NCBI GenBank assembly: GCA_017458125.1
Contig: JAFTGB010000031.1
Location: forward strand, 1 to 64,000
Source of the DNA: Prevotella sp.
Lineage (GTDB): Bacteria > Bacteroidota > Bacteroidia > Bacteroidales > Bacteroidaceae
DNA length: 64,000 nt
Direction of reading: 5' to 3'
Part shown: one piece after another, positions 2,387 to 63,455 of the stretch
Position numbering within the stretch: position 1 is the stretch's first letter
How the letters are laid out: every line of letters begins with the position of its first letter
Position numbers and translations under genes: made by a program
Notes under the pieces: model-generated
Databases searched by the model: none
Told to the model about the DNA's origin: nothing
What the model saw: only the letters and a program-made list of their open reading frames with translations

Positions 2387-3621
2387 TGGCGGGTTTTTAG
2401 GTAGTTACGCAGCGGGTTGGCATACATGGTGAGCATGCGTTCGCGGAGGAAAGGCTCATCGCGGCCAGGAATGTCAATCTTGGCCAGCTGGCCCTGCAGG
2501 TAGTGCTCGAAGCGCTGCTCGTCGGCCGCCGTGTAGTGCTCCTGCCAGTCGCGCCGCCCGTTGAGCAGGTCAAGGGCGATGTAGTTGCAGGGATAGAGGC
2601 GGTAGTTGCTGTGCAGCTGTTGGTCGATGCGGTGGCTGAGTGTCTCGTAGAACTCCTTCTTCGGCAGCTCCGTGAGTTCGTCGAGCCAGGTGTTGATGGG
2701 GGGAGCACAATGGTAGTGGACGCGTCCCTTGTAGCCCAAGATGCCGGTACGCATGTTGGTCAGGTCGTCCTGCTTGCTCTTCTTGAAGGCAGGGTTGTCG
2801 CGTTTCTGCTGGAACTCCTGAGCTTTCAGGTAGTCGCAGGGGTCGTACTCGTAGCTGATGGTCAGCGGCACGATGTTCAGTTCGCGGAGGTCGCCGCCCA
2901 TAGCCAGCATCTTCAGCACCGACTCCTGCGTTTGGTCGCTGGAGTCCTTGGCACGCCCCTCGCGCTGGGCTATCCAGATGTTCTCGTGCTTCTGGGTGAC
3001 AGCATAGTGGATGTAGCGGCTCATCAGCTGCGAGGAGCGCATCATCTCGTGAGCCGTCAGTCCGCGCCGCACGGTGAATGCCTTGTTCATGCGCACCAGC
3101 GTCTTTATCCAAGGGTAGATAAGCAGGTTGTCGCCGATGCCTATCTCGACGGTCGTGGGATAGCCGTACTTGTTAAGCAACACGTCGAGGAAAGCCGAGT
3201 CGAGCACAATGTCGCGATGATTGCTGAGGAAAGTGTAACGCGGGGTGAGTTTATAGTTTATAGTTGACAGTGAATAGTTATGATTACCTTGTGCACCAAC
3301 GTTGCTGCTATCTGGCATATCACAACTATTCACTATACACTCTTCACTATTCACTGCCAAGGCACTGTCGTCAAAGCTGAGACCATCGGTATATTTGCGT
3401 ACGACATGCCACACGATGGGCTTCATAATGCGCATCTGGAAGTCTAACGGCGTCTTCACACCCGTGAAGGCCAGACGCAACAGTCCGTTGCGCACCGACT
3501 TGGGCATCCATGGCACGAATCCTTTCAGCAAGGCCGAGAACTGACGGTCAGCCAGCAGTTCCTCGAAAGCCTGCTTCATCTCCCCTGCCTCGTAAGGCCT
3601 TATCTCGTCAAACTCATTCAT
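2383..3621 (-). CDS. Glycerolipid acyltransferase with an in-frame repeat insert
   Basis: This 412-residue protein resembles the Bacteroidales family annotated as 1-acyl-sn-glycerol-3-phosphate acyltransferase. The core motif SNHRDIVLDSA lies at 133-143, followed by ENIWIAQREGRAKD and the conserved LNIVPLTISYEYDPCDYLK. It would move an acyl chain onto a glycerolipid at the inner membrane. Between TDGLSFDD and RYTFLSNHRD lies about 36 residues (roughly 90-126) of low-complexity sequence encoded by an intergenic-type repeat at 3250-3356. Family members normally have only a short linker there. The frame stays open, so the protein could still be made with an enlarged loop just before the active-site motif. 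Substrate is inferred only from the family. Confidence 0.75.
   Translation of the reverse strand: MNEFDEIRPYEAGEMKQAFEELLADRQFSALLKGFVPWMPKSVRNGLLRLAFTGVKTPLDFQMRIMKPIVWHVVRKYTDGLSFDDSALAVNSEECIVNSCDMPDSSNVGAQGNHNYSLSTINYKLTPRYTFLSNHRDIVLDSAFLDVLLNKYGYPTTVEIGIGDNLLIYPWIKTLVRMNKAFTVRRGLTAHEMMRSSQLMSRYIHYAVTQKHENIWIAQREGRAKDSSDQTQESVLKMLAMGGDLRELNIVPLTISYEYDPCDYLKAQEFQQKRDNPAFKKSKQDDLTNMRTGILGYKGRVHYHCAPPINTWLDELTELPKKEFYETLSHRIDQQLHSNYRLYPCNYIALDLLNGRRDWQEHYTAADEQRFEHYLQGQLAKIDIPGRDEPFLRERMLTMYANPLRNYLKTRQ
3250..3356. repeat. Inverted-repeat element inside a coding gene
   Basis: The left arm (3250-3286) is made of TTTATAGTTTATAGTTGACA-like units. The right arm (3322-3356) is made of the reverse units ACTATTCACTATACACT. 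About 35 bp separate them. The same units flank the four-helix-bundle gene at 3621-3660 and 4042-4080, 300 bp away, and the tail TAGTTATGATTA is identical in both places. The insert keeps the acyltransferase frame open. Confidence 0.8.
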
Positions 3622-4080
3622 AGTTTATAGTGTATAGTGAATAGTTTATAGTTATGATTACTTTTTGCCCATTCTATTCTTCATCGTTTTTATAGAAGAT
3701 ACCAGCATCTTAATAATTTCTGTAATGTCGGCCAACAAGGATTCGTAGCCTCTCCTGTCAATGACACCTGCATGATATAGTCGTTCTAACCAGTATTCTG
3801 TCTCGCCAGCTTCTTTCAATGCTATGCTCAGCTTGCTAACGAAGTCTGCACCGCTCTGGGCAAAACGACTCTCTATAACATTTGCCCCTACACTGGTTCC
3901 ACTTCGATAAATCTGCTTAGACATGACCTCCTCGTGCTTAACGTTCCTAAGATAGCCATAGAGTTGACTAATACGGTCAGAAAAGGCTGCGGTCTTCAGT
4001 TTTAAAGGACTCTCGTCTTGTTTCAACATCACTTGTCTGACTAATCAAAACTATAAACTATTCACTATAAACTGTGCACT
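3621..4080. repeat. Inverted-repeat element carrying a four-helix-bundle gene
   Basis: Arm 3621-3660 and arm 4042-4080 are inverted copies. Both contain TATAGTGAATAGTTTATAGT followed by an almost identical TGATTA tail. The arms are themselves degenerate tandem repeats of a TATAGTGAATAGTT-type unit. The left arm contains the stop codon of the enclosed gene. The element fills almost the whole gap between ddl and the acyltransferase. Confidence 0.75.
3658..4032 (-). CDS. Four-helix-bundle protein, 23S rRNA intervening-sequence family (copy 1)
   Basis: A 124-residue all-helical protein with the family motif RSGTSVGANVIESRFAQS, then a conserved ALKEAGETEYWLERL. The family was first seen in intervening sequences of 23S rRNA genes and resembles the Avd accessory protein of diversity-generating retroelements. 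Its biochemical role is not settled; nucleic-acid binding through a basic barrel-like surface is the usual proposal. There is no reverse transcriptase or rRNA gene here. This copy groups with those at 45.4 and 63.2 kb by sequence. It could start at the first or second of two Met codons. Confidence 0.85.
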   Translation of the reverse strand: MMLKQDESPLKLKTAAFSDRISQLYGYLRNVKHEEVMSKQIYRSGTSVGANVIESRFAQSGADFVSKLSIALKEAGETEYWLERLYHAGVIDRRGYESLLADITEIIKMLVSSIKTMKNRMGKK

Positions 4081-4083
4081 GAA

Positions 4084-5073
4084 TCAGAACTGGTTCTCTA
4101 CGATGTCGGTCAGTACGTCCTTCATCTCTAAGCCGGCGGCGCGCACCTGCTGGGGAATGAAGCTGGTGGGGGTCATGCCCGGAGTGGTGTTGACTTCCAG
4201 CATAGAGATTTTGCCCTCCTTCGAGATGATGTAGTCGATGCGGATGATGCCGTTGCAGTGCAGGATGTCGTAGATGTGGCTGGTAATCTCGCGCACGCGG
4301 CGGGTGATGTCGTCCGACAGGCGGGCAGGGGTAATCTCCTTCACCTGACCGTTGTACTTGGCATCGTAGTCGAAGAACTCGTTGCTGGTGACAACCTCCG
4401 TGGCGGGCAGCACCACCGACTTCTCGCGGGTCTTGTAGACACCAATGGAGATTTCGGTGCCGTCGAGGAACTGCTCGACCATCACCGTGTCGCTCTCCAT
4501 CATGGCTTTGCGGATGGCGGGAGCCAGCTGGTCCTTCTCCTTCACCTTAGACACACCGAAGCTGGAGCCGTCGGCAGCAGGCTTGACGAAGCACGGCATG
4601 CCAATGCGCTGCTCTATCTCGTCGTCGCTGACCAGCTGCTCATAGCCCTGACGGATGAGCAGCGAGTCGGCCACGCTGACGCCATAGCCACGCAGATACT
4701 GGTTGAGCACGAACTTGTCGAAGGTCATGGCCTCGACAAGCACGCCACTGGTAGAATAGGGAATGCCCACCAGGTCGAAATAGCCCTGCAGGATGCCGTT
4801 CTCGCCCGGCGTACCGTGAATGGTGATGTAGGCATAGTCGAAGAGCCGCGCCTTGCCGTTCTCAATAAACGAGAAGTCGTTGCGGTCGATGCGTGCCGTA
4901 GTGCCGTCGGGCAGCTCAACGTGCCAGTCCTGGCCTTTGATGTCGACGATGTAAACCTTATAGCGCTCTTTGTCGAAGAACGAGTAGAGCCCTTGTGCGG
5001 AGCGCAGTGAGACATCGTGCTCCGAAGAGTCGCCACCGCAGACGATGGCAATGTTGCGTTTTAAATTTTTCAT
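4084..5073 (-). CDS. ddl: D-alanine--D-alanine ligase
   Basis: This 329-residue ATP-grasp enzyme joins two D-alanines for the peptidoglycan precursor. Visible family signatures are an N-terminal GGDSSEHDVSLRSAQG, the ATP-grasp segment CFVKPAADGSSFGVSKV, and the C-terminal LEVNTTPGMTPTSFIPQQ with Asn and Glu metal ligands. The length is normal. It lies 13 bp downstream of the RluA-type gene and is probably co-transcribed with it and the PASTA gene. It sits 4 kb from the dcw cluster, whereas many bacteria keep ddl inside that cluster. Confidence 0.95.
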   Translation of the reverse strand: MKNLKRNIAIVCGGDSSEHDVSLRSAQGLYSFFDKERYKVYIVDIKGQDWHVELPDGTTARIDRNDFSFIENGKARLFDYAYITIHGTPGENGILQGYFDLVGIPYSTSGVLVEAMTFDKFVLNQYLRGYGVSVADSLLIRQGYEQLVSDDEIEQRIGMPCFVKPAADGSSFGVSKVKEKDQLAPAIRKAMMESDTVMVEQFLDGTEISIGVYKTREKSVVLPATEVVTSNEFFDYDAKYNGQVKEITPARLSDDITRRVREITSHIYDILHCNGIIRIDYIISKEGKISMLEVNTTPGMTPTSFIPQQVRAAGLEMKDVLTDIVENQF

Positions 5074-5086
5074 TTATTATGCTGTG

Positions 5087-6115
5087 TTATTTTGTTGTTG
5101 TCGTTGAAAGGCGCATGCGCCACTTGTCTAACAAAGCAGCCATGTCGGAAGGAAGCGCAGTAGTGAAGTCCATCTGCTCACGGGTCACGGGGTGGACGAA
5201 ACCCAGCGTGCGGGCATGCAGAGCCTGACGCGGACACAGCCGGAAACAGTTCTGCACGTACGCCTTGTAGGAGGCGGTGCGTTCGCCGCGCAGTATCTCC
5301 ATGCCGCCGTAGCGCTCGTCGGCAAACAGCGGGTGGCCAATGTGCTTCATGTGGGCACGTATCTGATGAGTGCGTCCCGTCTCCAAACGGCACTCCACAA
5401 GCGTGGTGTAGCCGTAGCGCTCCAGTACGCGGTAGTGGGTGACAGCAGACTTGCCCGTCTCGGAAGCGGGAGGAAACACCGCCATGCGCTGGCGGTCGCG
5501 CGGGTCGCGCCCGATGTTGCCTTCTATGCGCCCGGCGTCCTCGACAAAGTTGCCCCAGACCAGTGCCTGGTAGGTGCGGTGGGTGTCGTGGTTGAAGAAC
5601 TGGGCTCCTAACTCGGTCTTGGCCTCCGGCGTCTTTGCCACCACCAGGAGTCCGCTGGTGTCCTTGTCAATACGGTGCACCAGTCCCACGCTGGGGTCGT
5701 TGGGGTCGTAGGTTGGCAAGGCACGCAAGTGCCAGGCTATGGCGTTGACCAGGGTGCCGTGGAAATTGCCCACACCGGGGTGCACCACCAGTCCGGCGGG
5801 CTTGTTGACCACCATCAGGGCGTCGTCCTCGTAGACGACATCGAGCGGAATGTCCTCAGGCTCTATGGTCGTGTCGTAGTGCGGACGGTCCAGCATCAGG
5901 GTGATGACATCGCCGGGACGCACCTTATAGCTGCTCTTCACCGCCTCGCCGTTGACATGAACGAAGCCTGCGTCGGCAGCCTTTTGAATGCGGTTGCGCG
6001 AGGCGTGCTGCACGTGTTCCGACATATATTTGTCGATGCGCACAGCCTCCTGCCCGTCGTCCACCGTCAGACGAAGGTGTTCATAAAGCTCAATGTCGTC
6101 CAGTTCCTCTGCCAT
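5087..6115 (-). CDS. RluA-family 23S rRNA pseudouridine synthase (RluD-like)
   Basis: The 342-residue protein has an N-terminal S4 RNA-binding domain (about 24-75) and a pseudouridine synthase domain. The catalytic motif HRIDKDTSGLLV starts at residue 147, with nucleophile Asp150. NKPAGLVVHPG (104-114) and LETGRTHQIRAHM are further family signatures. S4 plus this motif fits RluD, which modifies helix 69 of 23S rRNA, but RluC-type targets cannot be excluded. Six bases separate its start from the upstream PASTA gene stop. Confidence 0.88.
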   Translation of the reverse strand: MAEELDDIELYEHLRLTVDDGQEAVRIDKYMSEHVQHASRNRIQKAADAGFVHVNGEAVKSSYKVRPGDVITLMLDRPHYDTTIEPEDIPLDVVYEDDALMVVNKPAGLVVHPGVGNFHGTLVNAIAWHLRALPTYDPNDPSVGLVHRIDKDTSGLLVVAKTPEAKTELGAQFFNHDTHRTYQALVWGNFVEDAGRIEGNIGRDPRDRQRMAVFPPASETGKSAVTHYRVLERYGYTTLVECRLETGRTHQIRAHMKHIGHPLFADERYGGMEILRGERTASYKAYVQNCFRLCPRQALHARTLGFVHPVTREQMDFTTALPSDMAALLDKWRMRLSTTTTK

Positions 6116-6121
6116 GGCTCA

Positions 6122-6778
6122 CTACTCTACTGGCGGCTCCACCACTTCTTCAAACTCGTCTACCAGCGCCTCGTCGGGCTCAGCATACGACGGGTTGACA
6201 TACTCAAAGTCCTCCGTATCGCTCACACTGCCGTTACCCACCAACAGCGTCAGCGGATACTCGATGGGCACACGGTCGCCATTGGCCACGCGGCGACCGC
6301 GCGACAGGATACCGTACACCCAGTCTTTCTCGCCGGGAACCTTCCTGGAGGGCAACAGGCGGAAGCCCATGGCCACAAGACGGGCCTCGGCTTCACGGGC
6401 ACTGGTATTGTCAATGATATCGGGAATGGTAAACGAAGGCGACATCGGAGAATTGACGGTCACGTAAACCACGTGACCACGCTTCACCTTCATGCCATAG
6501 GATGGGGTCTGAGCCAGAACGCAGTCAGGGGGCAGCGTCTTGTTGTAGCCCGAATCGGTGACTTCCATCATCAAGCCGTCCTCCTCAAGCAGCGACAAGG
6601 CCTTGGCAGAGGACAGCCCTTTCAGCTGAGGCACCACAATAGCCTCGCCGTGATGAGTATAGATATCCAAACCGTATTTCACACCCAGAGCAAGCAATAC
6701 CACTACGACCGCCATGGCCAGCAGATTGCCCCAAACGTAAGCACCCCGCCTCTTGCCCGGGTTCTTCTTTGTCTTCAT
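6122..6778 (-). CDS. Membrane-anchored PASTA-domain protein
   Basis: I place the start at MKTKKNPGKRRG (6778). The longer frame would begin at a GTG overlapping the promoter box. The resulting 218 residues have a short basic cytoplasmic tail, one membrane segment (about 16-36), two or more PASTA domains outside (about 46-110 and 115-190, with VPQLKGLSSAKAL and IPDIIDNTSAREAE starts) and an acidic C-terminal tail. PASTA domains generally bind peptidoglycan or muropeptides. There is no kinase or transpeptidase domain. It precedes an rRNA-modification gene and ddl. Confidence 0.8.
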   Translation of the reverse strand: MKTKKNPGKRRGAYVWGNLLAMAVVVVLLALGVKYGLDIYTHHGEAIVVPQLKGLSSAKALSLLEEDGLMMEVTDSGYNKTLPPDCVLAQTPSYGMKVKRGHVVYVTVNSPMSPSFTIPDIIDNTSAREAEARLVAMGFRLLPSRKVPGEKDWVYGILSRGRRVANGDRVPIEYPLTLLVGNGSVSDTEDFEYVNPSYAEPDEALVDEFEEVVEPPVE

Positions 6779-6806
6779 CAGCTGATCAAATACTTTGTTT
6801 CTGCAA

Positions 6807-6815
6807 GCAAAAGTA
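6807..6815 (-). promoter_or_regulatory. Bacteroidetes -7 box for the PASTA-rluA-ddl operon
   Basis: On the minus strand TACTTTTGC matches the Bacteroidetes primary sigma factor -7 consensus TAnnTTTG. It lies about 30 bases before the chosen PASTA start. A T-rich, TTG-containing stretch about 20 bp further upstream could serve as the -33 element. Confidence 0.6.
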
Positions 6816-6899
6816 CAAAGAATAATTGACACAACAAAAAAATTGGGTATATTTCTTACGCTAACATACCCAATCCTTTATCCATCGCTACCGGAGTGC

Positions 6900-7055: not shown

Positions 7056-7099
7056 TGTTCTATCGTGTTATATTTGTTAATTTTCGTCGATTTCGGGCT

Positions 7100-7108
7100 G
7101 CAAAATTA
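7100..7108 (-). promoter_or_regulatory. -7 box for rpmH
   Basis: Minus-strand TAATTTTGC lies 45 bases upstream of the rpmH ATG. Confidence 0.6.
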
Positions 7109-7191: not shown

Positions 7192-7234
7192 ACCCGCTAA
7201 TGCGATTATCATACATTATTATAATAGCACATTT

Positions 7235-25120: not shown

Positions 25121-25365
25121 ACACTATTTTTCGGAAACTCCCCCACTTTCCCCCACTTTTTTCTGAAAATTTTTATTCTAACCTAAATTAAATTCATAAC
25201 GTGCTGTTATTAAGTAACTTGTGATTTCGTTACAAAGGTGGGGCAACAATGCCGTAAAACACCTGCGACACCACCCGAAAACCTGCCCCGAAACCCTGCC
25301 AAAACGGCCCGCCAACTTTGACCATCTGCCGCCACCATGTTGACAAACAGCACCGACGCTTTTGC

Positions 25366-25475
25366 AATTTAATTTAAATTGCTCGGTAATTTAATTTAAA
25401 TTGCTCGGTAATTTAATTTAAATTGCTCACCAATTTAATTTAATTTGCTCTGCAATTTAATTTAAATTGCAACAC
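25366..25475. repeat. Five tandem 22-bp AT-rich repeats
   Basis: Units start at 25366, 25388, 25410, 25432 and 25454. The first two are identical, and each begins with AATTTAATTTAAATTGC, which is nearly palindromic. The array lies in the 584-bp gap between mraZ and glsA, which start on opposite strands. Apart from the promoters and this array I see no gene in that gap. Confidence 0.9.
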
Positions 25476-26516: not shown

Positions 26517-27509
26517 ATGGAACAGCCTATCATATCTCCCATCAGCAAGGAACTGCTGAAAAGCGAACTGACCGACGACAAGCAGCTCCGCATGACCAAC
26601 AAGAGCCACAACAAAATCTACGTCATCACGGCGCATAACGCGCCCAACGTGATGCGCGAGATAGGCCGACTGCGCGAGATTGCCTTCCGCGAGGCTGGCG
26701 GCGGGACGGGCAAAGAGATGGACATCGACGAGTTCGACACTTGCGATAACTGCTACAAGCAGCTCATAGTGTGGAACCCGGACGAAGAGGAAATCATCGG
26801 CGGCTACCGCTATCTGGCCGGTACCGACTGGCAGTACGACGACAAAGGACAGCCCATACTGGCCACGAGCCACATGTTTCACTTCTCGGAGAAGTTCATC
26901 AAGGAGTACGCGCCACGCACCATCGAACTGGGACGCTCCTTCGTTTCGCTGCCCTACCAGTCGTCACGCAAGGGCGCCAAGAGTCTTTTCGCCCTCGACA
27001 ACCTATGGGACGGACTGGGTGCGCTGACGGTCATACGCCCGGATGTGAAATACTACTTCGGCAAGATGACCATGTATCCCTCCTACATCCGCAAGGGACG
27101 CGACATGATACTGTACTTCCTGAAGAAGCATTTCGACGATAAAGAGCACCTCATCATCCCGATGAAACCGCTGAAAATGGAGACGGACGTCCACGAACTG
27201 GAACAGCTCTTCAACGGACAGACGTTCAAGGAGGACTACCTGATTCTCAACCACGAGATACGAAAGCTGGGCTACAACATCCCGCCATTGGTGAATGCCT
27301 ACATGGGACTGTCGCCAACGATGAAGCTCTTCGGCACGGCCATCAACTACGGCTTCGGCGACGTGGAGGAAACGGGCATCCTGATAGCCATCGACGAAAT
27401 CTTTGAGGAAAAGCGCAAGCGCCATATTGACACCTTCATCCGCGACCACCGCGATGAGCTGGAAATCACGTCCGGTGCCAACAAGATTATCTATAAGGCT
27501 AAAAAATAA
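26517..27509 (+). CDS. glsB: N-acyltransferase of glycine-lipid synthesis (GlsB-like)
   Basis: The 330-residue protein is a GNAT-fold acyltransferase of the OlsB/hemolysin type. Visible family segments are REIGRLREIAFREAGGGTGKE near the N-terminus, IIGGYRYLAG, and PRTIELGRSFVSLPYQ in the acyl-ACP binding region. It would transfer a 3-hydroxyacyl chain to the amino group of glycine in Bacteroides-type pathways. It is probably co-transcribed with glsA. A unit-repeat element starts exactly at its stop codon. Confidence 0.75.
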   Translation: MEQPIISPISKELLKSELTDDKQLRMTNKSHNKIYVITAHNAPNVMREIGRLREIAFREAGGGTGKEMDIDEFDTCDNCYKQLIVWNPDEEEIIGGYRYLAGTDWQYDDKGQPILATSHMFHFSEKFIKEYAPRTIELGRSFVSLPYQSSRKGAKSLFALDNLWDGLGALTVIRPDVKYYFGKMTMYPSYIRKGRDMILYFLKKHFDDKEHLIIPMKPLKMETDVHELEQLFNGQTFKEDYLILNHEIRKLGYNIPPLVNAYMGLSPTMKLFGTAINYGFGDVEETGILIAIDEIFEEKRKRHIDTFIRDHRDELEITSGANKIIYKAKK

Positions 27510-27619
27510 GAAGCAAGAGGCAAGAAGCAAGAGATATGATGGTAAACGATGAAAAGGGTGAGCAGAGACAGAAGCGGCAGGAGTATTCTCTTGCTTCTTG
27601 CTTCTTGCCTCTTGCTTCT
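27509..27619. repeat. GAAGCAAGA-type inverted-repeat element overlapping a gene start
   Basis: The left arm (27509-27533) is built of AGAAGCAAGAGGCAAGAAGC-type units. The right arm (27588-27619) is the reverse complement with one extra unit. The right arm is identical over 32 bp to the right arm at 37021-37052. Further single units follow at about 27632-27645 and 27651-27664. The right arm and these units are translated as the N-terminus of the next protein. Confidence 0.85.
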
Positions 27620-42070: not shown

Positions 42071-42121
42071 CACCCACAACACCCACAACACTGGACTTCA
42101 GTGTCGTGGGTGTTGTGGGTG
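42071..42121. repeat. GC-rich 23-bp inverted repeat
   Basis: Arms 42071-42093 and 42099-42121 match at 22 of 23 positions around a 5-nt loop. Each arm contains the direct repeat CACCCACAA twice. It lies in the 394-bp gap between the exporter start and the M20 gene stop. That gap otherwise holds only repeats and a terminator. Confidence 0.85.
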
Positions 42122-42153
42122 TAGGGTAAAAAATCATTCAACTATACATAAAT

Positions 42154-42247
42154 AAAATGAGAAATGAGAAATGAGGAATGAGAAATGTAAATGAAAAAAT
42201 GTAGAAATGAAGTAATCATAAATTTCAAACATCAAACATCAAACTTC
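42154..42247. repeat. Unpaired unit-repeat arms
   Basis: 42154-42201 is a run of AATGAGAAATGAGAAATG-type units and includes ATGAGAAATGTAAATGAAAA, which also occurs in the arms around the gene at 45356. 42223-42247 (CAAACATCAAACATCAAAC) resembles the tail of the element at 60890-60920. No inverted partner is present, so these look like half elements. Confidence 0.7.
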
Positions 42248-43492: not shown

Positions 43493-45301
43493 ATGCAGAC
43501 AAATTTCCACATGTCAGTGCTTGTGCACGAGCAAGCAAAGAAATACGGCAACCGTGAAATGTTAATCTATCAGGACTTCGGCGGCAAGGAGTGGAAGACA
43601 TTGTCGTGGAACGAGGTGTCGCTGACCGTCAAGCAGGTGTCGAACGCCCTGCTCAACATGGGTGTGAAGGTGCAGGAGAACATCGGCATCTTCTCGCAGA
43701 ACTCCGTGCAGTACATCGAGTGCGACTTCGCCGCATGGGGCGTGAGGGCTGTCACCATCCCGTTCTACGCCACCAGCTCGGAGCAGCAGATTCAGTTTAT
43801 GGTCAACGACGCCAAGATCCGGTTCCTCTTCGTCGGCGAACAGGAGCAGTACGACAAGGCGCACCGCGTCTTCTCGCTCTGTCCCACGCTGGAGCGCATC
43901 ATCGTCTTCGACCCGGCGGTCAGCATCAGCGACACGGACTCCAGTGCCATCTACTTCAGCGACTTCCTGCAGCTGGGCAACAACCTGCCGCGCCAGACCG
44001 AGGTGGAGCAGCTGCAGGCCGAAGCGTCGTTCGACGACATTGCCAACATCCTATACACCAGCGGTACCACGGGCGACTCCAAGGGCGTCATCCTGACGCA
44101 CGGCCAGTTCAACGCGGCCATGGTGGCCAACAGCAAGTGCGTGCCCGTCACCGACAGCGACCGCATCATGAATTTCCTGCCCTACACGCACGTCTTCGAG
44201 CGCGGATGGGCCATCCTGTGCATATACGCCGGTGCCACGCTCATCGTTAACACGCACCCGCAGGAGGTGCAGCAGTCCATGCGCGACACCCACCCCACCT
44301 GCATGTCGGCCGTGCCCCGCTTCTGGGAGAAGGTCTACATGGGCGTGATGGACAAGATAGAGCACTCCAGCGCCGTACAGCGCAAACTGTTCCTGCACGC
44401 CTTGGAGGTAGGCCGCAGGCACAACATAGAATACCTGAGCTTAGGCAAGAAGCCGCCCATGGCACTGCACTTGGAGTACGAGGTGCTCAACCGCACCGTC
44501 TTCTCGCTGGTACGCAAGGAGTTAGGACTGGAGAACGCCCACTTCTTCCCCACCGCCGGTGCTGCCGTCAGCGCCCATGTGGAGGAGTTCGTACACTCCA
44601 TAGGCATCAACATGATAGTGGGCTACGGACTGACCGAGAGCCTGGCCACCGTGTCGTGCGACCACTTAGGCGACCCCTACACCGTAGGCTCCGTGGGCAT
44701 ACCCATCGAGGGCATCGACATCAAGGTCAGCGAAGAGGGCGAGATACTGCTCAAAGGCCCCACCATCACCAAGGGCTACTACAACCGCGAAGACCTGACG
44801 AAGCAGGCTTTCACCGAAGACGGATACTTCAAGACGGGCGACGCCGGATACATGAAGGACGGCGAGCTGTTCCTGACGGAGCGCATCAAGGACCTGTTCA
44901 AGACGTCGAACGGCAAGTACATTGCTCCGCAGATGATAGAGTCGAAGCTGCTGGTCGACAAGTTCATCGACCAGATAGCCATCATTGCCGACCAGCGCAA
45001 ATTCGTGTCGGCACTCATCATACCCGTCTACAGCCTCTTGGAGGAGTACGCCCGTGAACACGGCATAGCCTACGACAGCCGCGAACAGCTCTGCACCAAC
45101 CCGCAGATTATGCAGATGATGAAGGAGCGCATCGACACCCTGCAGCAGCAGCTGGCTCACTACGAGCAGGTGAAGCGCTTCACCCTGCTGCCCAACCCGC
45201 TGTCAATGGCCAAGGGCGAACTGACAAACACGCTGAAAATCCGCCGCCGCGTGCTGAACGAAAACTATAAAGAACTGATTGACGCGATGTACGTTGATTA
45301 G
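43493..45301 (+). CDS. Long-chain fatty acid--CoA ligase
   Basis: The 602-residue AMP-forming enzyme activates fatty acids with ATP and coenzyme A. The P-loop-like motif YTSGTTGDSKGVILTH lies around residue 184. Later come VGYGLTESLATVSCD and the linker segment YFKTGDAGYMKDGELFLTERIKD. It belongs to the FadD/AMP-dependent synthetase group and is probably at the inner face of the membrane. It is followed by a repeat element rather than by other fatty-acid genes. Confidence 0.9.
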   Translation: MQTNFHMSVLVHEQAKKYGNREMLIYQDFGGKEWKTLSWNEVSLTVKQVSNALLNMGVKVQENIGIFSQNSVQYIECDFAAWGVRAVTIPFYATSSEQQIQFMVNDAKIRFLFVGEQEQYDKAHRVFSLCPTLERIIVFDPAVSISDTDSSAIYFSDFLQLGNNLPRQTEVEQLQAEASFDDIANILYTSGTTGDSKGVILTHGQFNAAMVANSKCVPVTDSDRIMNFLPYTHVFERGWAILCIYAGATLIVNTHPQEVQQSMRDTHPTCMSAVPRFWEKVYMGVMDKIEHSSAVQRKLFLHALEVGRRHNIEYLSLGKKPPMALHLEYEVLNRTVFSLVRKELGLENAHFFPTAGAAVSAHVEEFVHSIGINMIVGYGLTESLATVSCDHLGDPYTVGSVGIPIEGIDIKVSEEGEILLKGPTITKGYYNREDLTKQAFTEDGYFKTGDAGYMKDGELFLTERIKDLFKTSNGKYIAPQMIESKLLVDKFIDQIAIIADQRKFVSALIIPVYSLLEEYAREHGIAYDSREQLCTNPQIMQMMKERIDTLQQQLAHYEQVKRFTLLPNPLSMAKGELTNTLKIRRRVLNENYKELIDAMYVD

Positions 45302-45305
45302 TGTC

Positions 45306-45821
45306 AAATGAGTAATGAGTAATGAGAAATGAGAAATGTAAATGAAAAATGAATAATGGCCGAAGCACTAAGAGACAATATCATCGTGGATAAGTCCGAA
45401 AGGTTTGCCGACAGGATAACAAAAATGTACCGTTACCTGTCGGAGAAGCGTCAAGGCGACAAGGACATGCTGAAGCAGATAGTCCGCAGCGGCACCAGCG
45501 TCGGTGCCAATGTCTCGGAAGGACAATACGCACAGACAAAGGCAGACTTTCTGACTAAGATGACGATAGCTCTCAAGGAAGCCAACGAAACCAGGTTCTG
45601 GCTAAAAAGGCTATACGCATTCGGCTCTCTCACCGAGAAGGAATTTATATCAATCGTTAAGGACAGTGAAGAAATAATCAGTATATTGACAACAATAACC
45701 AAAACTACAAAAGAGAACCTGAAAAATGGTACTGAGAAACAGTAGACGAAGACAGGGAAGGACACTGTCATTTCTCATTTTTCATTTACATTTCTCATTA
45801 CTCATTTCTCATTTCTCATTT
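45306..45821. repeat. Inverted-repeat element carrying a four-helix-bundle gene
   Basis: Arms 45306-45357 and 45769-45821 are inverted and share GAGAAATGTAAATGAAAAAT exactly. Each arm is a run of AATGAGAA-type units about 50 bp long. The left arm ends at the start codon of the enclosed gene. The right arm ends 9 bp before prfB. Confidence 0.9.
45356..45745 (+). CDS. Four-helix-bundle protein, 23S rRNA intervening-sequence family (copy 2)
   Basis: The 129-residue helical protein carries RSGTSVGANVSEGQYAQTK and IALKEANETRFWLKRLYA. By sequence it is closest to the copies at 3.7 and 63.2 kb. It lies between an acyl-CoA ligase gene and prfB, enclosed by inverted arms, with no promoter box of its own. 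Confidence 0.85.
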   Translation: MAEALRDNIIVDKSERFADRITKMYRYLSEKRQGDKDMLKQIVRSGTSVGANVSEGQYAQTKADFLTKMTIALKEANETRFWLKRLYAFGSLTEKEFISIVKDSEEIISILTTITKTTKENLKNGTEKQ

Positions 45822-45829
45822 AAAACAAT

Positions 45830-46951
45830 ATGATCACACAAGACCAGTTAAAAAACGTACTCGACAGGGCTGAAGCACTGTATAAATACCTGAAGATAGG
45901 CGAAAAGCGCATGGAGTACGAGGAGGAGGAGCTCCGCACACAGGACCCCGACTTCTGGCAGGACCAGAAACGCGCCGAAGAACAAATGAAGAAGGTGAAG
46001 GGCATCAAGAAGTGGCTCGACGGCTACCAGGAGGTGCGCACGGCTGCCGACGAACTGCAACTGGCCTTCGACTTCTACAAGGAGGAGATGGTGACGGAGG
46101 ACGAGGTGGATGCCGACTACGCCAAAGCCATCAAGGCCATCGAGGCACTGGAGCTGAAGAACATGCTGCGCCAGAAGGAAGACCCGATGGACGCCGTGCT
46201 GAAAATCAACAGCGGCGCCGGTGGCACCGAGGCGCAGGACTGGGCACAGATGCTGATGCGCATGTACCAGCGCTGGGCCGAGGCCCACGACTACAAGGTG
46301 TCGATAGCCAACCTGCAGGACGGCGACGAGGCCGGCATCAAGAGCGTGACGATGCAGATAGAGGGCGGCGAGTTTGCCTACGGCTTCCTGAAAAGCGAAA
46401 ACGGCGTACACCGCCTGGTGCGCGTGTCGCCCTATAACGCGCAGGGCAAGCGCATGACGTCGTTTGCCTCGGTCTTCGTGTCGCCGCTGGTCGACGACAC
46501 CATCGAGGTGTATGTCGACCCCGCCAAACTGTCGTGGGACACCTTCCGCTCCAGCGGTGCCGGCGGCCAGAACGTCAACAAGGTGGAGTCGGGCGTGCGA
46601 CTGCGCTACTGGTACACTGACCCCGACACGGGCGAGGAGGAAGAGATACTCATTGAGAACACTGAGACGCGCGACCAACCCAAGAACAAGGAGCGCGCCA
46701 TGGCACTGCTGCGCTCGCAGCTCTACGACCGCGCCATGCAGAAGCGCTTGGAGGCGCAGGCCAAGATAGAGGCGGGCAAGAAGAAGATTGAGTGGGGCAG
46801 CCAGATACGCTCCTACGTCTTCGACGACCGCCGCGTCAAAGACCACCGCACCAACTACCAGACCTCTGACGTCGACGGCGTCATGGATGGCAAAATCGAC
46901 GATTTCATCAAAGCATACCTGATGGAATTTGGAATGGAGAATGTGGAATGA
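45830..46951 (+). CDS. prfB: Peptide chain release factor 2
   Basis: The 373-residue factor ends translation at UGA and UAA. The catalytic GGQ is in SSGAGGQNVNKVESGVRL. The codon-recognition region reads RVSPYNAQGKRMTSF, where E. coli RF2 has SPF. Domain 1 coiled coil covers about 1-110. The frame is continuous from the first ATG, with no internal UGA, so the autoregulatory frameshift found in many RF2 genes is absent. Four-helix-bundle genes lie on both sides. Confidence 0.95.
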   Translation: MITQDQLKNVLDRAEALYKYLKIGEKRMEYEEEELRTQDPDFWQDQKRAEEQMKKVKGIKKWLDGYQEVRTAADELQLAFDFYKEEMVTEDEVDADYAKAIKAIEALELKNMLRQKEDPMDAVLKINSGAGGTEAQDWAQMLMRMYQRWAEAHDYKVSIANLQDGDEAGIKSVTMQIEGGEFAYGFLKSENGVHRLVRVSPYNAQGKRMTSFASVFVSPLVDDTIEVYVDPAKLSWDTFRSSGAGGQNVNKVESGVRLRYWYTDPDTGEEEEILIENTETRDQPKNKERAMALLRSQLYDRAMQKRLEAQAKIEAGKKKIEWGSQIRSYVFDDRRVKDHRTNYQTSDVDGVMDGKIDDFIKAYLMEFGMENVE

Positions 46952-47452
46952 GGAGTGATTGTGCTTTGCACAATGAAAAATGACTTAATGAAGAGTGAAG
47001 CAATGAGTGATTTTGGTAAACTGATGGAAGAAAAGTGCATGAATTTTGCTGTTCGCATCACAAATTTATGCCGTTTCCTCGTTGACGAGAAAAAAGAAAA
47101 CAGGATTTCTGATCAATTGTTCAGAAGCGGCACCAGTATTGGTGCCAATATGGCCGAAGCTCAATGCGCAATCTCAAAGAAAGACTTCACCTCAAAAGTC
47201 TACATTTCATTAAAAGAGTGTAACGAGAGCTTGTTCTGGTTATCCCTTTTAATGAGAACAGGCTACTTAAACAAGAAACAATACGACTCTATTTATGATG
47301 ATTGTTTAGAACTGAAACGACTTTTAGCCACTATAACCAAGACGTCAAAGGAAAGAATTGAAATCGAAAATAACAAATAAACAATTTATCATTAAACATT
47401 GAAACATCAGCTAAGCTGAACATTCAACAATTAACATTCAACACTTAAAATT
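46935..47452. repeat. Weakly inverted unit repeats around copy 3
   Basis: Left flank 46935-47002 has GAATGGAGAATGTGGAATGA-type units and a small hairpin ATTGTGCTTTGCACAAT (46958-46974). Right flank 47386-47452 has AACATTCAACAATTAACATT-type units and a hairpin CAGCTAAGCTG (47408-47418). The inverted match is much weaker than in the other elements. The left flank runs into the prfB stop codon. Confidence 0.5.
47003..47380 (+). CDS. Four-helix-bundle protein, 23S rRNA intervening-sequence family (copy 3)
   Basis: I choose the start MSDFGKLMEEKCMNF at 47003 because it aligns with copy 4 (MSDFGDIMQDKCLNF). An upstream Met would add repeat-encoded residues. The 125-residue protein has RSGTSIGANMAEAQCAISK and ISLKECNESLFWLSLL. 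Copies 3 and 4 form a second subgroup, with Cys-rich AEAQCAIS in place of AQS. Confidence 0.85.
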   Translation: MSDFGKLMEEKCMNFAVRITNLCRFLVDEKKENRISDQLFRSGTSIGANMAEAQCAISKKDFTSKVYISLKECNESLFWLSLLMRTGYLNKKQYDSIYDDCLELKRLLATITKTSKERIEIENNK

Positions 47453-59207: not shown

Positions 59208-59222
59208 AAATGAAAAGTTAAT

Positions 59223-59333
59223 AGTGAAGAGTGAAGGGTGAAGAATTTACTGCTGACGATGATGTTCAACGAATGGGAAATTATAAAAAAGATTAAGGCA
59301 GCAGCAAATTCTTCACTCTTCACTCTTCACTCT
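59223..59333. repeat. Empty inverted-repeat element
   Basis: The left arm 59223-59255 (AGTGAAGAGTGAAGGGTGAA, then GAATTTACTGCTG) and the right arm 59299-59333 are inverted, with about 31 of 33 matches over a 43-nt spacer. The arms share AGTGAAGAATTT.CTGC with the element at 62117-62205. No gene is enclosed. Confidence 0.85.
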
Positions 59334-59346
59334 TCGCTAAATTTCG

Positions 59347-59355
59347 TACCTTTGC
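59347..59355 (+). promoter_or_regulatory. -7 box for pta
   Basis: TACCTTTGC lies 40 bases before the pta ATG and 14 bp after the repeat element, which therefore occupies the upstream promoter region. Confidence 0.6.
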
Positions 59356-59394
59356 AGACAGTGTTTATTTAAGAACTAAATATTAGAACAAACT

Positions 59395-60405
59395 ATGGAT
59401 TTATTAAGTCAAATCGTTGCACGTGCTAAGAGCAACAAGCAACGCATCGTGCTCCCCGAGGCTGAAGAGGAGCGCACACTTTGTGCAGCCGACAAGGCTC
59501 TGGCTGACGACATTGCTAACATCATCCTCATCGGCAACCCCGACAAGGTCTGCGCCCTGGCTAAGGAGAAGGGCCTGCAGAACATCGGCAAGGCTACCCT
59601 CATCGACCCCGAGAACTACGAGAAGAGCGAAGAGTTGGCCGAGAAGCTGGCCGAGATTCGCAAGTCAAAGGGCATGACCATTGAGCAGGCCCGTGAGCTG
59701 GTGAAGAACCCCCTCTACTTAGGTTGCATGATTATCAAGACCGAAGGTGCTGACGGCCAGATCAGCGGTGCCCTGTCAACCACTGGCGACACGCTGCGTC
59801 CCGCCCTGCAAATCATCAAGTGCGCCCCCGGCATCAACTGCGTCAGCGGCGGCCTGTTGCTCATCTCGAAGCAGAAGCAGTTCGGCGAGGACGGCGTACT
59901 CGTTGTTGCCGACGTGGCTGTAACGCCCATGCCCGATGCCAACCAGCTGGCCCAGTTTGCCGTCTGCACGGCACAGACCGCCAAGTCGGTGGCCGGTTTC
60001 ACCGACCCGCGCGTGGCCATGCTGAGCTTCTCGACGAAGGGCAGCGCCAAGCACGAGGTGTGCGACAAGGTCATCGAGGCCACGCGTCTGGCCAAAGAGA
60101 TGGATCCCACGCTGAAGATTGACGGCGAGCTGCAGGCCGATGCCGCACTCGTTCCCAGCGTAGGTGCCAAGAAGGCTCCCGGCAGCGACATCGCCGGTAA
60201 GGCCAACGTGCTGGTATTCCCCAACCTGGAGGTCGGCAACATCGGCTACAAGCTGGTGCAGCGCTTAGGCGACGCCATCGCCATCGGCCCCATCCTGCAG
60301 GGTATTGCCCGTCCGGTCAACGACCTGTCGCGTGGCTGCTCGGTTGACGACATCTACTACATGATAGCCATCACCGCCTGCCAGGCCATGGATGCTAAAA
60401 AGTGA
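59395..60405 (+). CDS. pta: Phosphate acetyltransferase
   Basis: The 336-residue enzyme converts acetyl-CoA and phosphate to acetyl phosphate. It matches the short, catalytic-only form of Pta: RIVLPEAEEERTLCAADKAL at the N-terminus, YLGCMIIKTEGADGQISGAL, MLSFSTKGSAKHE and the C-terminal GPILQGIARPVNDLSRGCS. It works with ackA to yield ATP and acetate, central to fermentation. A four-helix-bundle gene separates it from ackA. Confidence 0.96.
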   Translation: MDLLSQIVARAKSNKQRIVLPEAEEERTLCAADKALADDIANIILIGNPDKVCALAKEKGLQNIGKATLIDPENYEKSEELAEKLAEIRKSKGMTIEQARELVKNPLYLGCMIIKTEGADGQISGALSTTGDTLRPALQIIKCAPGINCVSGGLLLISKQKQFGEDGVLVVADVAVTPMPDANQLAQFAVCTAQTAKSVAGFTDPRVAMLSFSTKGSAKHEVCDKVIEATRLAKEMDPTLKIDGELQADAALVPSVGAKKAPGSDIAGKANVLVFPNLEVGNIGYKLVQRLGDAIAIGPILQGIARPVNDLSRGCSVDDIYYMIAITACQAMDAKK

Positions 60406-60417
60406 AGAATATTGACG

Positions 60418-60909
60418 GTGCAAGTTTGATGTACGATGTATTGCGCTTTGCGCAAGTTTAATGTATAAATTAGGACGTCGAAAGTTCTGACATGAGCGAT
60501 TTTGGGGACATTATGCAAGACAAGTGCTTGAACTTTGCTGTGCGAGTGGTTAATCTTTGTGACTTTCTCAATAAGGAGAAAAGCGAATTTAAGATAGCAG
60601 ACCAGCTTTACCGCAGCGGGACAAGTATTGGCGCAAATTATAGCGAGGCACAATGTGCCATTAGCAAAAATGATTTTATAGCAAAGGTCTATATATCGCT
60701 TAAAGAGTGTAATGAGTCTCTGTTTTGGCTACAACTACTAAGAAGGACGAATAAACTGACCCCAAGTCAGTTTGATTCCATCTATCAAGATTGTGAAGAA
60801 CTGAAGAGATTGTTGACTACCATCACGAAGTCATCACGTAAGAATCTGTAACACATCGTCCATTCATACATCGTACTTCAACCTTGCACCGCAATACATC
60901 GTACATCAA
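60418..60909. repeat. Inverted-repeat element carrying a four-helix-bundle gene, inside pta-ackA
   Basis: TTGATGTACGATGTATTGCG (60426-60445) is perfectly inverted at 60890-60909. A second inverted copy of GGTGCAAG...TACGATGTA (60418-60440) lies around 60863-60890. The left side also has the hairpin TTGCGCTTTGCGCAA (60441-60455). The right arm reaches 19 bp before ackA. Confidence 0.9.
60492..60851 (+). CDS. Four-helix-bundle protein, 23S rRNA intervening-sequence family (copy 4)
   Basis: The 119-residue protein has RSGTSIGANYSEAQCAISK and ISLKECNESLFWLQLL, and is very close to copy 3 across its whole length. It lies between pta and ackA in the same direction, so it is presumably transcribed with them. 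Low GC compared with both neighbours suggests later arrival. Confidence 0.87.
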   Translation: MSDFGDIMQDKCLNFAVRVVNLCDFLNKEKSEFKIADQLYRSGTSIGANYSEAQCAISKNDFIAKVYISLKECNESLFWLQLLRRTNKLTPSQFDSIYQDCEELKRLLTTITKSSRKNL

Positions 60910-60927
60910 AATTCAAACATCAAAATT

Positions 60928-62118
60928 ATGAAAATATTAGTTTTAAACTGTGGTTCGTCGTCCATTAAGTACGCCCTGTATAACATGGACGACAAGAGTG
61001 TGATGACCAGCGGCGGTGCCGAGCGTGTCGGTTTGGAAGGAGCCTTTGTCAAGGTGAAGCTGGCCAATGGTGAGAAGAAGCAGATTATGCACGACATACC
61101 CGAGCACACCGAGGGTGTGAAGTTCATCTTCTCGCTGCTCACCGACCCCGAGATTGGTGTCATCAAAGACCTGAAGGAGATTGACGCCGTTGGCCACCGC
61201 ATGGTGCACGGCGGCGAGAAGTTCAACAAGAGCGTGCTGCTGACCGACGAGGTGTTAGAGGCTTTCGAGGCCGTCAGCGACCTGGCTCCGCTGCACAACC
61301 CTGCCAACCTGAAAGGTGTCAACGCCGTTAAGGAGCTCATGCCCGGTCTGCCCCAGGTGGGTGTCTTCGACACGGCCTTCCACCAGACCATGCCCGCCAA
61401 GGCATACATGTATGCCATCCCCTACGAGCTGTACGAGAAGTACGGCGTGCGCCGCTACGGTTTCCACGGCACCTCTCACCGCTACGTCAGCGCCCGTGCG
61501 CTGGAGTTCCTCGGCATGAAGGCCGAAGGCACCAAGGTCATCACGTGCCATGTGGGTAATGGCGGCTCCATCGCTGCCGTCGTCGACGGCAAGTGCGTCG
61601 ACACGTCGATGGGTCTCACCCCGTTGGAGGGCCTGGTCATGGGTACCCGCTCTGGCGATATTGACGGCGGCGCCGTGACGTTCTTAGAGAAGAAGCTCGG
61701 TCTGGATGCCGACGGCATGTCGAACCTGCTGAACAAGAAGAGCGGCGTGGCCGGCATCACGGGTGGTTCCAGCGACATGCGCGACGTGGAGAGTGCCGCA
61801 AAGAGCGGCGACAAGCGCGCCCAGCTTGCTCAGGACATGTACTTCTACCGCATCAAGAAATACATCGGTGCCTACGCTGCCGCCATGGGTGGTGTCGACG
61901 TCATCGTGTTCACCGCCGGTGTTGGCGAGAACCAGTTGTCGATGCGCGCTGAGGTCTGCAAGGGCTTAGAGTTCCTCGGTGTCAAGTTCGACGAGTCGAA
62001 GAACACCAAGCGCGGCGAGGAGTGCATCATCTCTGCCGACGACTCTAAGGTAAAGGTTGTCGTCATCCCCACCGACGAGGAGCTGATGATTGCCACCGAC
62101 ACGATGAACCTTCTTTAA
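60928..62118 (+). CDS. ackA: Acetate kinase
   Basis: The 396-residue enzyme makes ATP and acetate from acetyl phosphate and ADP. Family signatures are LVLNCGSSSIKYAL at the start, GHRMVHGGEKF, RYGFHGTSHRYVS with the catalytic His, and FTAGVGENQLSMR. The length is normal. It ends in a hairpin of unit repeats that faces lpxH. Confidence 0.97.
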   Translation: MKILVLNCGSSSIKYALYNMDDKSVMTSGGAERVGLEGAFVKVKLANGEKKQIMHDIPEHTEGVKFIFSLLTDPEIGVIKDLKEIDAVGHRMVHGGEKFNKSVLLTDEVLEAFEAVSDLAPLHNPANLKGVNAVKELMPGLPQVGVFDTAFHQTMPAKAYMYAIPYELYEKYGVRRYGFHGTSHRYVSARALEFLGMKAEGTKVITCHVGNGGSIAAVVDGKCVDTSMGLTPLEGLVMGTRSGDIDGGAVTFLEKKLGLDADGMSNLLNKKSGVAGITGGSSDMRDVESAAKSGDKRAQLAQDMYFYRIKKYIGAYAAAMGGVDVIVFTAGVGENQLSMRAEVCKGLEFLGVKFDESKNTKRGEECIISADDSKVKVVVIPTDEELMIATDTMNLL

Positions 62119-62205
62119 GTGAAGAGTGAAAAGTGAAGAGTGAAGAATTTCCTGCCGGACTCCAAAGGCGGTAGCAAATTCTTCACTCTTCACTTTTCAC
62201 TCTTT
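62117..62205. repeat. Empty inverted-repeat element, probable terminator
   Basis: Arms 62117-62155 and 62171-62205 are inverted (AGAGTGAAAAGTGAAGAGTG and its reverse) with a 15-nt spacer. The left arm starts in the ackA stop codon. Being between convergent genes, it probably terminates both. It shares its inner motif with 59223-59333. Confidence 0.85.
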
Positions 62206-62210
62206 AAAGC

Positions 62211-62975
62211 TTAGGGTCTGCTTTCACCCTCCACGTATTCCTCTAAGAACATGTGCTCACCGTCATAGACGGCATAGGTGAACTGGCTTATCCAGTCGCC
62301 TAAAATCATCAGACGCGTATGGCGCGCCAGCTTCATGTCCAACTCTATGTGGCGGTGACCGAAGATGAAGTAGTCAATGTTAGGGTGGTCCTCCACATAC
62401 TTCCGGGCAAAGAGCACCAGATGCTCGCGGTTCTCACCCATGAACACGGGCTCGTCCTTCTCCTTATGCTTGATGTAGCTGTGCTTGGCCCACTGCAGTC
62501 CGAAGCCGACTCCCCAGCGCGGGTGCAGACCGGAGAAGAGCCACTGGCAGAAGGGCGAATGGAAGATGGCGCGGATAACCTTGAACGAACGGTTGGGGTC
62601 GCCCATGCCGTCGCCGTGTGCCAGGAAGAACTCATGGCCGTATATCTCCGTCGTCTCAGCCTTGTGGTGCAGCGTGACACCGCACTCCTCGGCCAAGTAG
62701 CCGTATGCCCAGATGTCGTGGTTGCCGGTAAAGTAATGCACTTCGACACCCATGTCCGTCAGTTCCGACAGCTTGCCGAGGAAGCGAGTAAAGCCCTTGG
62801 GCACCACGTAGCGGTACTCATACCAGAAGTCAAACATGTCGCCCAGCAGGTAGATGGCTGCCGCCTTCTCCTTGATGGAGTCGAGGAAGCGCACCAGCCT
62901 GCGTTCCTGCATGCGCTGATGCGGGATGGCAAGTGAGCCCAAGTGGGCATCGGAAAGGAAATAAACGTTTTTCAT
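62211..62975 (-). CDS. lpxH: UDP-2,3-diacylglucosamine diphosphatase, LpxH type
   Basis: This 254-residue calcineurin-like metallophosphatase contains all metal motifs: FLSDAHLGS, LLGDMFDFWYEY, FTGNHDIW, LAHGDGMGD and IFGHRHIE. LpxH removes UMP from UDP-diacyl-glucosamine to make lipid X for lipid A. The length and the FWYEY motif fit the Bacteroidales LpxH-like group. The start codon touches the left arm of the next element. Confidence 0.87.
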   Translation of the reverse strand: MKNVYFLSDAHLGSLAIPHQRMQERRLVRFLDSIKEKAAAIYLLGDMFDFWYEYRYVVPKGFTRFLGKLSELTDMGVEVHYFTGNHDIWAYGYLAEECGVTLHHKAETTEIYGHEFFLAHGDGMGDPNRSFKVIRAIFHSPFCQWLFSGLHPRWGVGFGLQWAKHSYIKHKEKDEPVFMGENREHLVLFARKYVEDHPNIDYFIFGHRHIELDMKLARHTRLMILGDWISQFTYAVYDGEHMFLEEYVEGESRP

Positions 62976-63455
62976 AGATGAGAGATGAGAAGTGAGAAAT
63001 GAGAGATATGATCACACTGTAGGCGGTAGTTTCCCCACCTTTTTCTTGAGCGTTTTAACTGGGGAGACCAGCATTCTGACAAGTTCGTCACAGTCTGCCG
63101 ATATAGAAACATATTCTTTTTCACTAAGATATCCTCCATGATATAAGTTTTTAATCCAGAAAGCTGTTTCATCAGCTTCTTTCAATGCGATATTTTGTTT
63201 ATTAATATAGTCCATCACGCTTTGCGCGTTCCTACTTTCCGCAATGTTTGCACCTATGCTGGTACCACTGCGTACAACCTGCTTGGACATGATTTGTTCC
63301 TTTTTCTGAGTTATGAGATACTGATACATCTTGACTATTCTACCGGCAAAGGCCTCCGACTTCTCCAACAGAATGTTTGGCTTCCTCTCCATCATACCCC
63401 CTCTGCTTATAAAGTAATCATATTTCTCATCTCTCACCTCTCACTTCTCATCTTA
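62975..63455. repeat. Inverted-repeat element carrying a four-helix-bundle gene
   Basis: Left arm 62975-63012 (GATGAGAGATGAGAAGTGAG-type units, ending GATATGAT) is inverted at 63417-63455. The left arm begins in the lpxH start codon and the right arm ends in the stop codon of the MIP18-type gene, so it fills the gap exactly. Confidence 0.88.
63012..63395 (-). CDS. Four-helix-bundle protein, 23S rRNA intervening-sequence family (copy 5)
   Basis: I start at MMERKPNILLEKSEAF (63395); the longer frame adds repeat-encoded MRDEKYDYF. The 127-residue protein has RSGTSIGANIAESRNAQS and IALKEADETAFWIKNLYH. It groups with copies 1 and 2. It is transcribed in the same direction as lpxH and the MIP18-type gene. 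Confidence 0.85.
   Translation of the reverse strand: MMERKPNILLEKSEAFAGRIVKMYQYLITQKKEQIMSKQVVRSGTSIGANIAESRNAQSVMDYINKQNIALKEADETAFWIKNLYHGGYLSEKEYVSISADCDELVRMLVSPVKTLKKKVGKLPPTV

Follow-up and report, generated by a model that had tools for sequence, protein, structure and literature searches.

Introduction

The closest described counterparts of the elements reported here are the intervening sequences (IVSs) of 23S ribosomal RNA (rRNA) that carry an S23 open reading frame (ORF). In passages of PMC4990558, the 23S IVS of Coxiella is described as 428 nt long with a 28-bp inverted-repeat stem, excised by RNase III, and with tandem GACAGAT heptamers ahead of the S23p ORF; the related Xanthomonas protein is a homopentamer, and the function and origin of rRNA IVSs are termed unclear. 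Here, we analyze a 64,000-nt stretch of Prevotella sp. contig JAFTGB010000031.1 (genome GCA_017458125.1), referred to as the window, in which five genes of the same protein family (PF05635 and TIGR02436) are located between protein genes and not inside a 23S rRNA helix, four of them framed by inverted arrays of short tandem units, referred to as arms. To our knowledge, PF05635 has no settled function.

The window elements resemble 23S rRNA IVSs in their protein family, in their similar size, and in having terminal inverted repeats (at four of the five window loci and 67 of 77 cross-phylum loci), and the likeness extends to the tandem heptamers of the Coxiella IVS (as described in parts of PMC4990558). 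They differ in being located between protein genes, and in having locus-specific heptamer arrays, dispersed ORF-less copies, and a sibling class with another ORF.

Other repeats share some of these properties. Rickettsia palindromic elements are palindromic in-frame inserts in genes, and foldback transposons have inverted ends composed of short tandem units; we know of neither carrying a PF05635-type protein. Miniature inverted-repeat transposable elements (MITEs), such as BrickBuilt of Porphyromonas (described in sections of PMC4596501), are ORF-less and intergenic with inverted ends and tandem units, and dispersed ORF-less copies with shared ends are also found here, where the ORF with those ends encodes a four-helix bundle. 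However, the units of BrickBuilt are 23 nt long and its short terminal inverted repeats are separate, whereas here the heptamer arrays are themselves the ends. Intergenic direct repeats of the heptamer TAACTGA, near start codons, are described from Beggiatoaceae, Cyanobacteria, and Bacteroidetes in portions of PMC4679880, but with one fixed heptamer and a single inverted case in the main genome; neither 'S23' nor 'four helix' occurs in the text of that paper. We found no description of such arms around PF05635 genes in the open-access PMC literature, a search outside of which lie most subscription papers and all preprints.

Results

Inverted arms around PF05635 genes

The basic architecture – a four-helix-bundle gene between inverted heptamer arrays – is solid. 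All five window genes score above the Pfam cut-off, and an earlier note made from the sequence alone was correct in naming them paralogues of the 23S rRNA intervening-sequence protein family; the whole genome has 13 PF05635 matches, 11 of them above the cut-off. The note had also described inverted arms at four of the five loci, and these are present, with ends mostly within a few bases of those first described and longer in places; none of 100 dinucleotide shuffles matches the observed score at any of the four. The arms are 87% complementary at element 1 and 88% at element 2, while element 4 has two overlapping pairings (60395-60445/60890-60940, 76%, and 60416-60441/60866-60891, 92%), and the element 5 arms are 92% complementary over 62983-63007/63429-63453. 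Element 3 (46955-47380) has no significant inverted arms, its score being 16 and the maximum of 100 dinucleotide shuffles 22. Heptamers can be read by eye in both flanks, AATGNGG-like on the left and AGTGTTG/AATGTTR-like on the right, and because these differ the two arms seem to have diverged from each other.

Inverted flanks are much commoner at PF05635 genes than at other genes, as the note had anticipated. Within 645 kb of the Prevotella genome, an arm score of at least 30 is reached by seven of ten ORFs overlapping PF05635 genes (the three low-scoring ones include window gene 46955) and by six of 450 other genes. One of these controls, with an arm score of 33, resembles a fragment of a repeat-associated tyrosine transposase (RAYT), but a link to RAYTs and repetitive extragenic palindromes was dropped, as the short repeat that forms its dyad does not resemble the arms. 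Among 73 loci from this and related genomes, 52 score above the 99% quantile of 5256 mismatched upstream/downstream pairs, and the arms therefore match their own partner. These 73 are the PF05635 loci fetched by then – a portion of all matches in 40 genomes searched, our own included – and found by our own seed profile, with overlapping copies removed and long zinc-ribbon-type relatives (e.g. L011, L013, L100-L103) excluded; one locus with a cut flank (the second gene of L105) is counted as a miss. Among the excluded relatives, L011 encodes a 255-aa protein with a C-terminus that is zinc-ribbon-like by eye, and its flanking CGAAATCC-type repeats are apparently direct and not inverted. Arm scores of at least 35 are found at 19 of 21 and 14 of 18 loci in two sets of close homologs.

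The arms extend well beyond Prevotella. From at least 580 relatives in GTDB contigs we took the 80 best, of which 77 were testable and three were left out for short flanks; 67 of the 77 have arm scores of at least 30, 62 at least 35, and 44 above 48. The threshold of 30 is lenient, because mismatched pairs in this set reach 35 at the 95% quantile and 48 at the 99% quantile. With groups assigned by record title, scores of at least 30 are found for 35 of 41 Bacteroidota, 26 of 28 Clostridia, and both Sulfurovum loci, and for one locus each in Lentisphaeria, Verrucomicrobia, Fibrobacter, and an unclassified bacterium; the Treponema and Ignavibacteria loci score below 30. Among 20 of these 80 loci scanned with Rfam, two transfer RNAs and no rRNA were found.

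A heptamer grammar common to several phyla

Of 83 arms, 50 are best described by a period of 7 or 14 and 13 by a period of 8; six have other values and 14 have none, as do 953 of 1040 shuffled arms. Arms typically contain about four to five heptamers, although some subfamilies have octamers or other periods instead; family-specific short cores are found at the inner ends. When 84 period-7 left arms, from 114 armed loci, were phased without supervision, a motif approximating ARTKNAN (A, A/G, T, T/G, any, mostly A, any) emerged de novo with an information content of 4.53 bits, compared to a maximum of 3.67 in 20 column-permuted sets. Phased alone, two subsets of the 84 show the motif again, as AATT(A/G)A(any) in 31 Bacteroidota arms and, once rotated, as A(A/G)T(G/T)C(A/G)(any) in 22 Clostridia arms. 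Period 7 is found in 18 of 25 loci with RSGTS-type proteins and three of 12 with AAISI-type proteins (p 0.012), but this link between arm period and protein type is suggestive only, because five loci without a clear period and ten of neither type were left out.

Arm similarity follows protein similarity

The arms form part of the element. At different sites, protein similarity correlates with arm similarity (Spearman 0.35 over 3022 pairs; maximum of 500 permutations, 0.126), and the AATKAGN unit keeps to its protein clade across different sites. The correlation was calculated from 81 loci with arm scores of at least 35, and is thus uninformative about armless copies. For orthologs at two of three shared sites, the two arms of a locus resemble each other more closely than they do those of other species, with normalised alignment scores of 0.79 within loci and 0.52 between species at the up602-prfB gap (arms in 14 of 16 loci), and 0.62 and 0.28 at pta-ackA (arms in five of eight loci). 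Arm identities are 91 and 94% in the closest pair of same-site orthologs, whose synonymous sites are saturated. This saturation, with raw estimates above 1 in some pairs, led us to discard the ratio of nonsynonymous to synonymous change (dN/dS) and to use dN alone.

The earlier note had suggested that symmetry is kept perhaps because the protein or a host enzyme acts on the folded hairpin, and for an RNA hairpin this was not supported. G-U-compatible mismatches between arms show no excess over A-C mismatches, the counts being 65/79 (57 loci) and 41/41 (32 loci) in two four-helix sets that share one locus (L092, the same as L298), and 33/25 (22 loci) for arms of the GxxExxY genes described below. 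Because G-U mismatches do not exceed A-C ones, RNA pairing does not explain the symmetry, and selection for an RNA hairpin was rejected as its cause. The same counts bear on the idea that these are RNA-processing elements like classical IVSs, with arms forming a stem in polycistronic messenger RNA that RNase III cuts and selection maintains. Their co-directional position in operons would suit such a role, as would the RNase III excision published for a 23S member (reported in parts of PMC4990558), but ORF-less hairpins are also present between convergent genes, and together with the mismatch pattern this makes RNA processing quite improbable. The likeness of the two arms probably arises instead from one protein recognising both ends as DNA, or from one arm being copied from the other.

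ORF-less hairpins with the units of gene-bearing elements

Derivatives lacking the gene are dispersed in the genome. The 645 kb contain 50 intergenic inverted repeats, 43 with loops of no more than 114 nt, and many of 24 inspected hairpins carry units and cores of gene-bearing elements. The arms do frame the genes at four window loci as first described, but not exclusively, since many ORF-less inverted repeats share the same unit families. The RGCAAGA unit pattern GCAAGARGCAAGAGA has 51 exact matches in the genome and none when reversed, forming about 34 clusters by our count, one of which holds the gene. Three copies share an identical core, GAGAATACTCAAACATCAGACATTTCTC, and variants of a longer one, GAGAAATGTTGGTAAACCC...GTATTCTC, are found repeatedly in both orientations. 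An RGCAAGA hairpin is centred in another hairpin at L021 (1058-1223) and at L022 (10068-10240), which suggests insertion at hairpin tips; this is only a lead, because other composites are one-sided.

One ORF-less hairpin of the element 1 family lies within a conserved gene (2383-3621) and corresponds to a 33-residue gap in the alignment with the ortholog in G007. Among nine orthologs inspected, our own included, that of G041 has the right arm only and the other seven lack the hairpin; the position is in a variable-length loop. By look the gene had been taken for an acyltransferase, but family scans were empty and the name was dropped.

Unit-type hairpins tend to be found together with the gene. 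None are present in 400 kb from four same-genus genomes with zero or one gene, compared to nine in 400 kb from four genomes with more (six in G044, two in G282, one in G004, and none in G008), and gene-free tandem runs correlate with gene number over 13 genomes (Spearman 0.85); the genomes and stretches in these comparisons were chosen by hand, not randomly. The orientation of gene-free runs between co-directional genes does not significantly favour the sense direction (9 vs 4).

Occupied, empty, and one-armed gaps

Empty sites in relatives, anticipated by the note if the elements move, are seen as empty or one-armed orthologous gaps and in the in-gene insertion absent from seven orthologs. 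The gap is too short for a PF05635 gene in 24 of 25 genomes at up602-prfB, 23 of 24 at ddl, and 22 of 26 at lpxH, and in G007, whose prfB (93%) is the closest to ours among 30 genomes, just 2 nt separate up602 from prfB. Among 26 loci with both pta and ackA, six have a PF05635 gene and two a PF13366 gene between them. In five genomes (G007, G013, G020, G022, and G041) this gap is 28-35 nt and consists of one unit run, i.e. a single arm, and in G003 and G042 there appears to be a single arm plus an inner core. One of four filled lpxH gaps (L218, in G044) is 338 nt with both arms and only a 62-aa PF05635 fragment nearby, and is probably a decaying element.

Single-arm gaps, together with the degenerate tandem units, would favour the idea that replication slippage and template switching generate the arms locally within short gaps, with the genes as passive passengers. 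We find this very improbable, as unit-type hairpins are concentrated in genomes with more genes, the heptamer grammar is common to different phyla, arms correlate with proteins at different sites, and only six of 450 other genes have arms.

The genomic setting also bears on a regulatory role, in which the four-helix protein binds the arms as operators to control its gene together with neighbours in the operon, and the gene is an inherited accessory and not mobile. Such a role is consistent with the finding that 48 of 55 armed loci are flanked on both sides by genes running in their own direction (compared to 206 co-directional gene triples of 432 in our own genome), with the common occurrence of same-site orthologs, and with low nonsynonymous change (0.10-0.33, synonymous sites being saturated) in ten pairs with gene 2. 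It does not readily accommodate the dispersed ORF-less hairpins and the in-gene insertion, the empty gaps, or the presence of different gene types, even of another family, in one gap, and we consider it unlikely.

A second gene family with arms

No gene of our own genome matches the unrelated GxxExxY family (PF13366), but 21 of 30 same-genus genomes have matches. Arm scores of at least 30 are found at 22 of 28 loci tested (of 30 fetched), with the 450 other genes as the only control; none of the 22 has a 7-nt period, and 18 have no clear period. The two PF13366 genes between pta and ackA (G006:C45 and G023:C12; L122 and L126) have apparent inverted arms, in a gap that elsewhere is that of the four-helix gene.

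The four-helix-bundle protein

The structure of the gene 2 protein was modelled with a predicted local distance difference test score (pLDDT) of 93.5, and the nearest solved folds are 2rld, which is BT_0352 of Bacteroides thetaiotaomicron, and 2gsc, each with five chains per entry and both catalogued as uncharacterised proteins. Avd of diversity-generating retroelements, likewise a four-helix bundle, aligns with the model at TMt 0.75-0.84 (chains of 4dwl and 8ub7), but is about 13% identical; its best match (4dwl, TMt 0.84) has an E-value of 0.11 and is outranked by unrelated four-helix proteins, which have E-values of 0.009 to 0.1 and lower TM-scores. Avd is not among the sequence matches of the protein.

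Other features of the window

Coordinates of the elements are listed in Table 1. Neighbouring genes named from family scans are ddl, an AMP-binding enzyme gene (up602), prfB, pta, ackA, a SUF-type gene, and an lpxH-like gene, the last scoring below the cut-off of that family model. Two other types of repeat are present: a palindromic family with TTGCAATTTAAWTTAAATTGC-like units and no heptamers (window 25362-25472; L030 18228-18316), and dispersed hairpins with 5-nt loops and CACCCACAACACCCACAACACTG-like arms (window 42071-42121; L069 1757-1819; L070 10124-10182; L072 14142-14202).

Table 1. Elements, ORF-less hairpins, and heptamer runs in the window
Feature	Position	Strand	Basis or remark
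ORF-less hairpin of element 1 family, in frame inside conserved 412-aa gene 2383-3621(-)	3262..3346	.	Absent in G007 ortholog
Arm of element 1	3622..3660	.	AGTKWAT heptamers beside TTATGATTAC; 87% complementary to 4042-4080
Four-helix-bundle gene 1, PF05635/TIGR02436	3658..4032	-	Family scans
Inverted arm of element 1	4042..4080	.	Inverted-repeat search
ORF-less hairpin, RGCAAGA units	27508..27619	.	
ORF-less hairpin, RGCAAGA units, as in gene-bearing element at C25	36964..37080	.	
Single heptamer run of element 2 family, without gene	42153..42193	.	
Left arm of element 2	45301..45358	+	AATGAGN heptamers; 88% complementary to 45769-45826
Four-helix-bundle gene 2, between AMP-binding-enzyme gene (up602) and prfB	45356..45745	+	Family scans, structure model
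Right arm of element 2	45769..45826	+	Inverted-repeat search
Left heptamer run of element 3, overlaps prfB end	46930..46962	+	Read by eye; no significant inverted partner
Four-helix-bundle gene 3	46955..47380	+	Family scans
Right heptamer run of element 3, seemingly diverged from left run	47381..47452	+	Read by eye
ORF-less hairpin, AGTGAAG units, similar core	59212..59339	.	
Left arm of element 4, at pta end	60395..60445	+	Inverted-repeat search
Four-helix-bundle gene 4, between pta and ackA	60492..60851	+	Family scans
Right arm of element 4	60866..60940	+	Inverted-repeat search
ORF-less hairpin, AGTGAAR units	62117..62206	.	
Arm of element 5	62976..63007	.	RTGAGAN heptamers; inverted-repeat search
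Four-helix-bundle gene 5, between SUF-type gene and lpxH-like gene	63012..63437	-	Family scans
Inverted arm of element 5	63424..63453	.	Inverted-repeat search

Discussion

The window loci are units of one element type, as the earlier note had inferred. We put at slightly better than even (a probability of about 0.53) the interpretation that they belong to a widespread class of mobile elements that would include 23S rRNA IVSs as one kind, with an Avd-like protein that binds the arms and ORF-less hairpins that are moved in trans. Mobility is well supported by the ORF-less copies, the in-gene insertion, and the empty gaps, although it is not proven. The element would comprise a small four-helix-bundle gene between two inverted arrays that mostly number about four to five heptamers and have, on the inner side, short cores particular to each family. 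The protein may bind the arms, perhaps with one heptamer per subunit, which would fit because arms hold about four to five heptamers and solved relatives have five chains. The protein would then move the DNA between the arms with help from an enzyme of the host or of another element; ORF-less hairpins with cognate arms could be moved in trans, in the manner of MITEs, and 23S rRNA IVSs may be members that settled in rRNA helices.

Several observations weigh against this interpretation. No movement of an element within a species was seen, and family scans of the five window ORFs revealed no nuclease or transposase family. Of 21 closest homologs of gene 2 analyzed, our own copy included, 16 share the up602-prfB gap, and much of the element's history is therefore vertical; sites fixed across species, which the note had regarded as contrary to its proposal, are thus present in part, but empty sites exist. 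The note had also proposed that arms drift while staying symmetric, and the two sites described above agree with this, but at a third same-site set the arms score lower within loci than between species (0.50 vs 0.58; arms in five of five loci), showing no concerted evolution. In another clade, arm units differ strongly at 81-85% protein identity. With regard to the grammar, RGCAAGA arms fall outside of the ARTKNAN motif, and only 29% of 76 gene-free heptamer runs exceed the 90% null for it. Co-occurrence is likewise imperfect: gene-rich G008 has no unit-type hairpin in 100 kb, G061 has ten runs per 100 kb with one gene while G004 has only one with five genes, and over the same 13 genomes gene-free runs correlate with G+C content (0.80), so that this or kinship may also account for the correlation with gene number. 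The match to Avd is not significant by E-value (0.11), and the proteins ranking above it include four-helix plant inhibitors.

A more specific version of the mobile-element interpretation can be proposed only tentatively, and we doubt that it is correct in full. It supposes a new, transposase-free class in which a pentameric Avd-like ring reads the inverted heptamer arrays, each subunit reading a single unit, and in which one arm serves as the template for the other during copying, so that both are rewritten together and specificities change while symmetry is kept; the GxxExxY elements would be a parallel class.

The heptamer arms are a candidate ligand for the PF05635 protein, and the heptamer grammar could be used to locate such elements in several phyla. 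The rRNA IVSs would then take their place in a wider family of elements, and GxxExxY genes share a comparable architecture.

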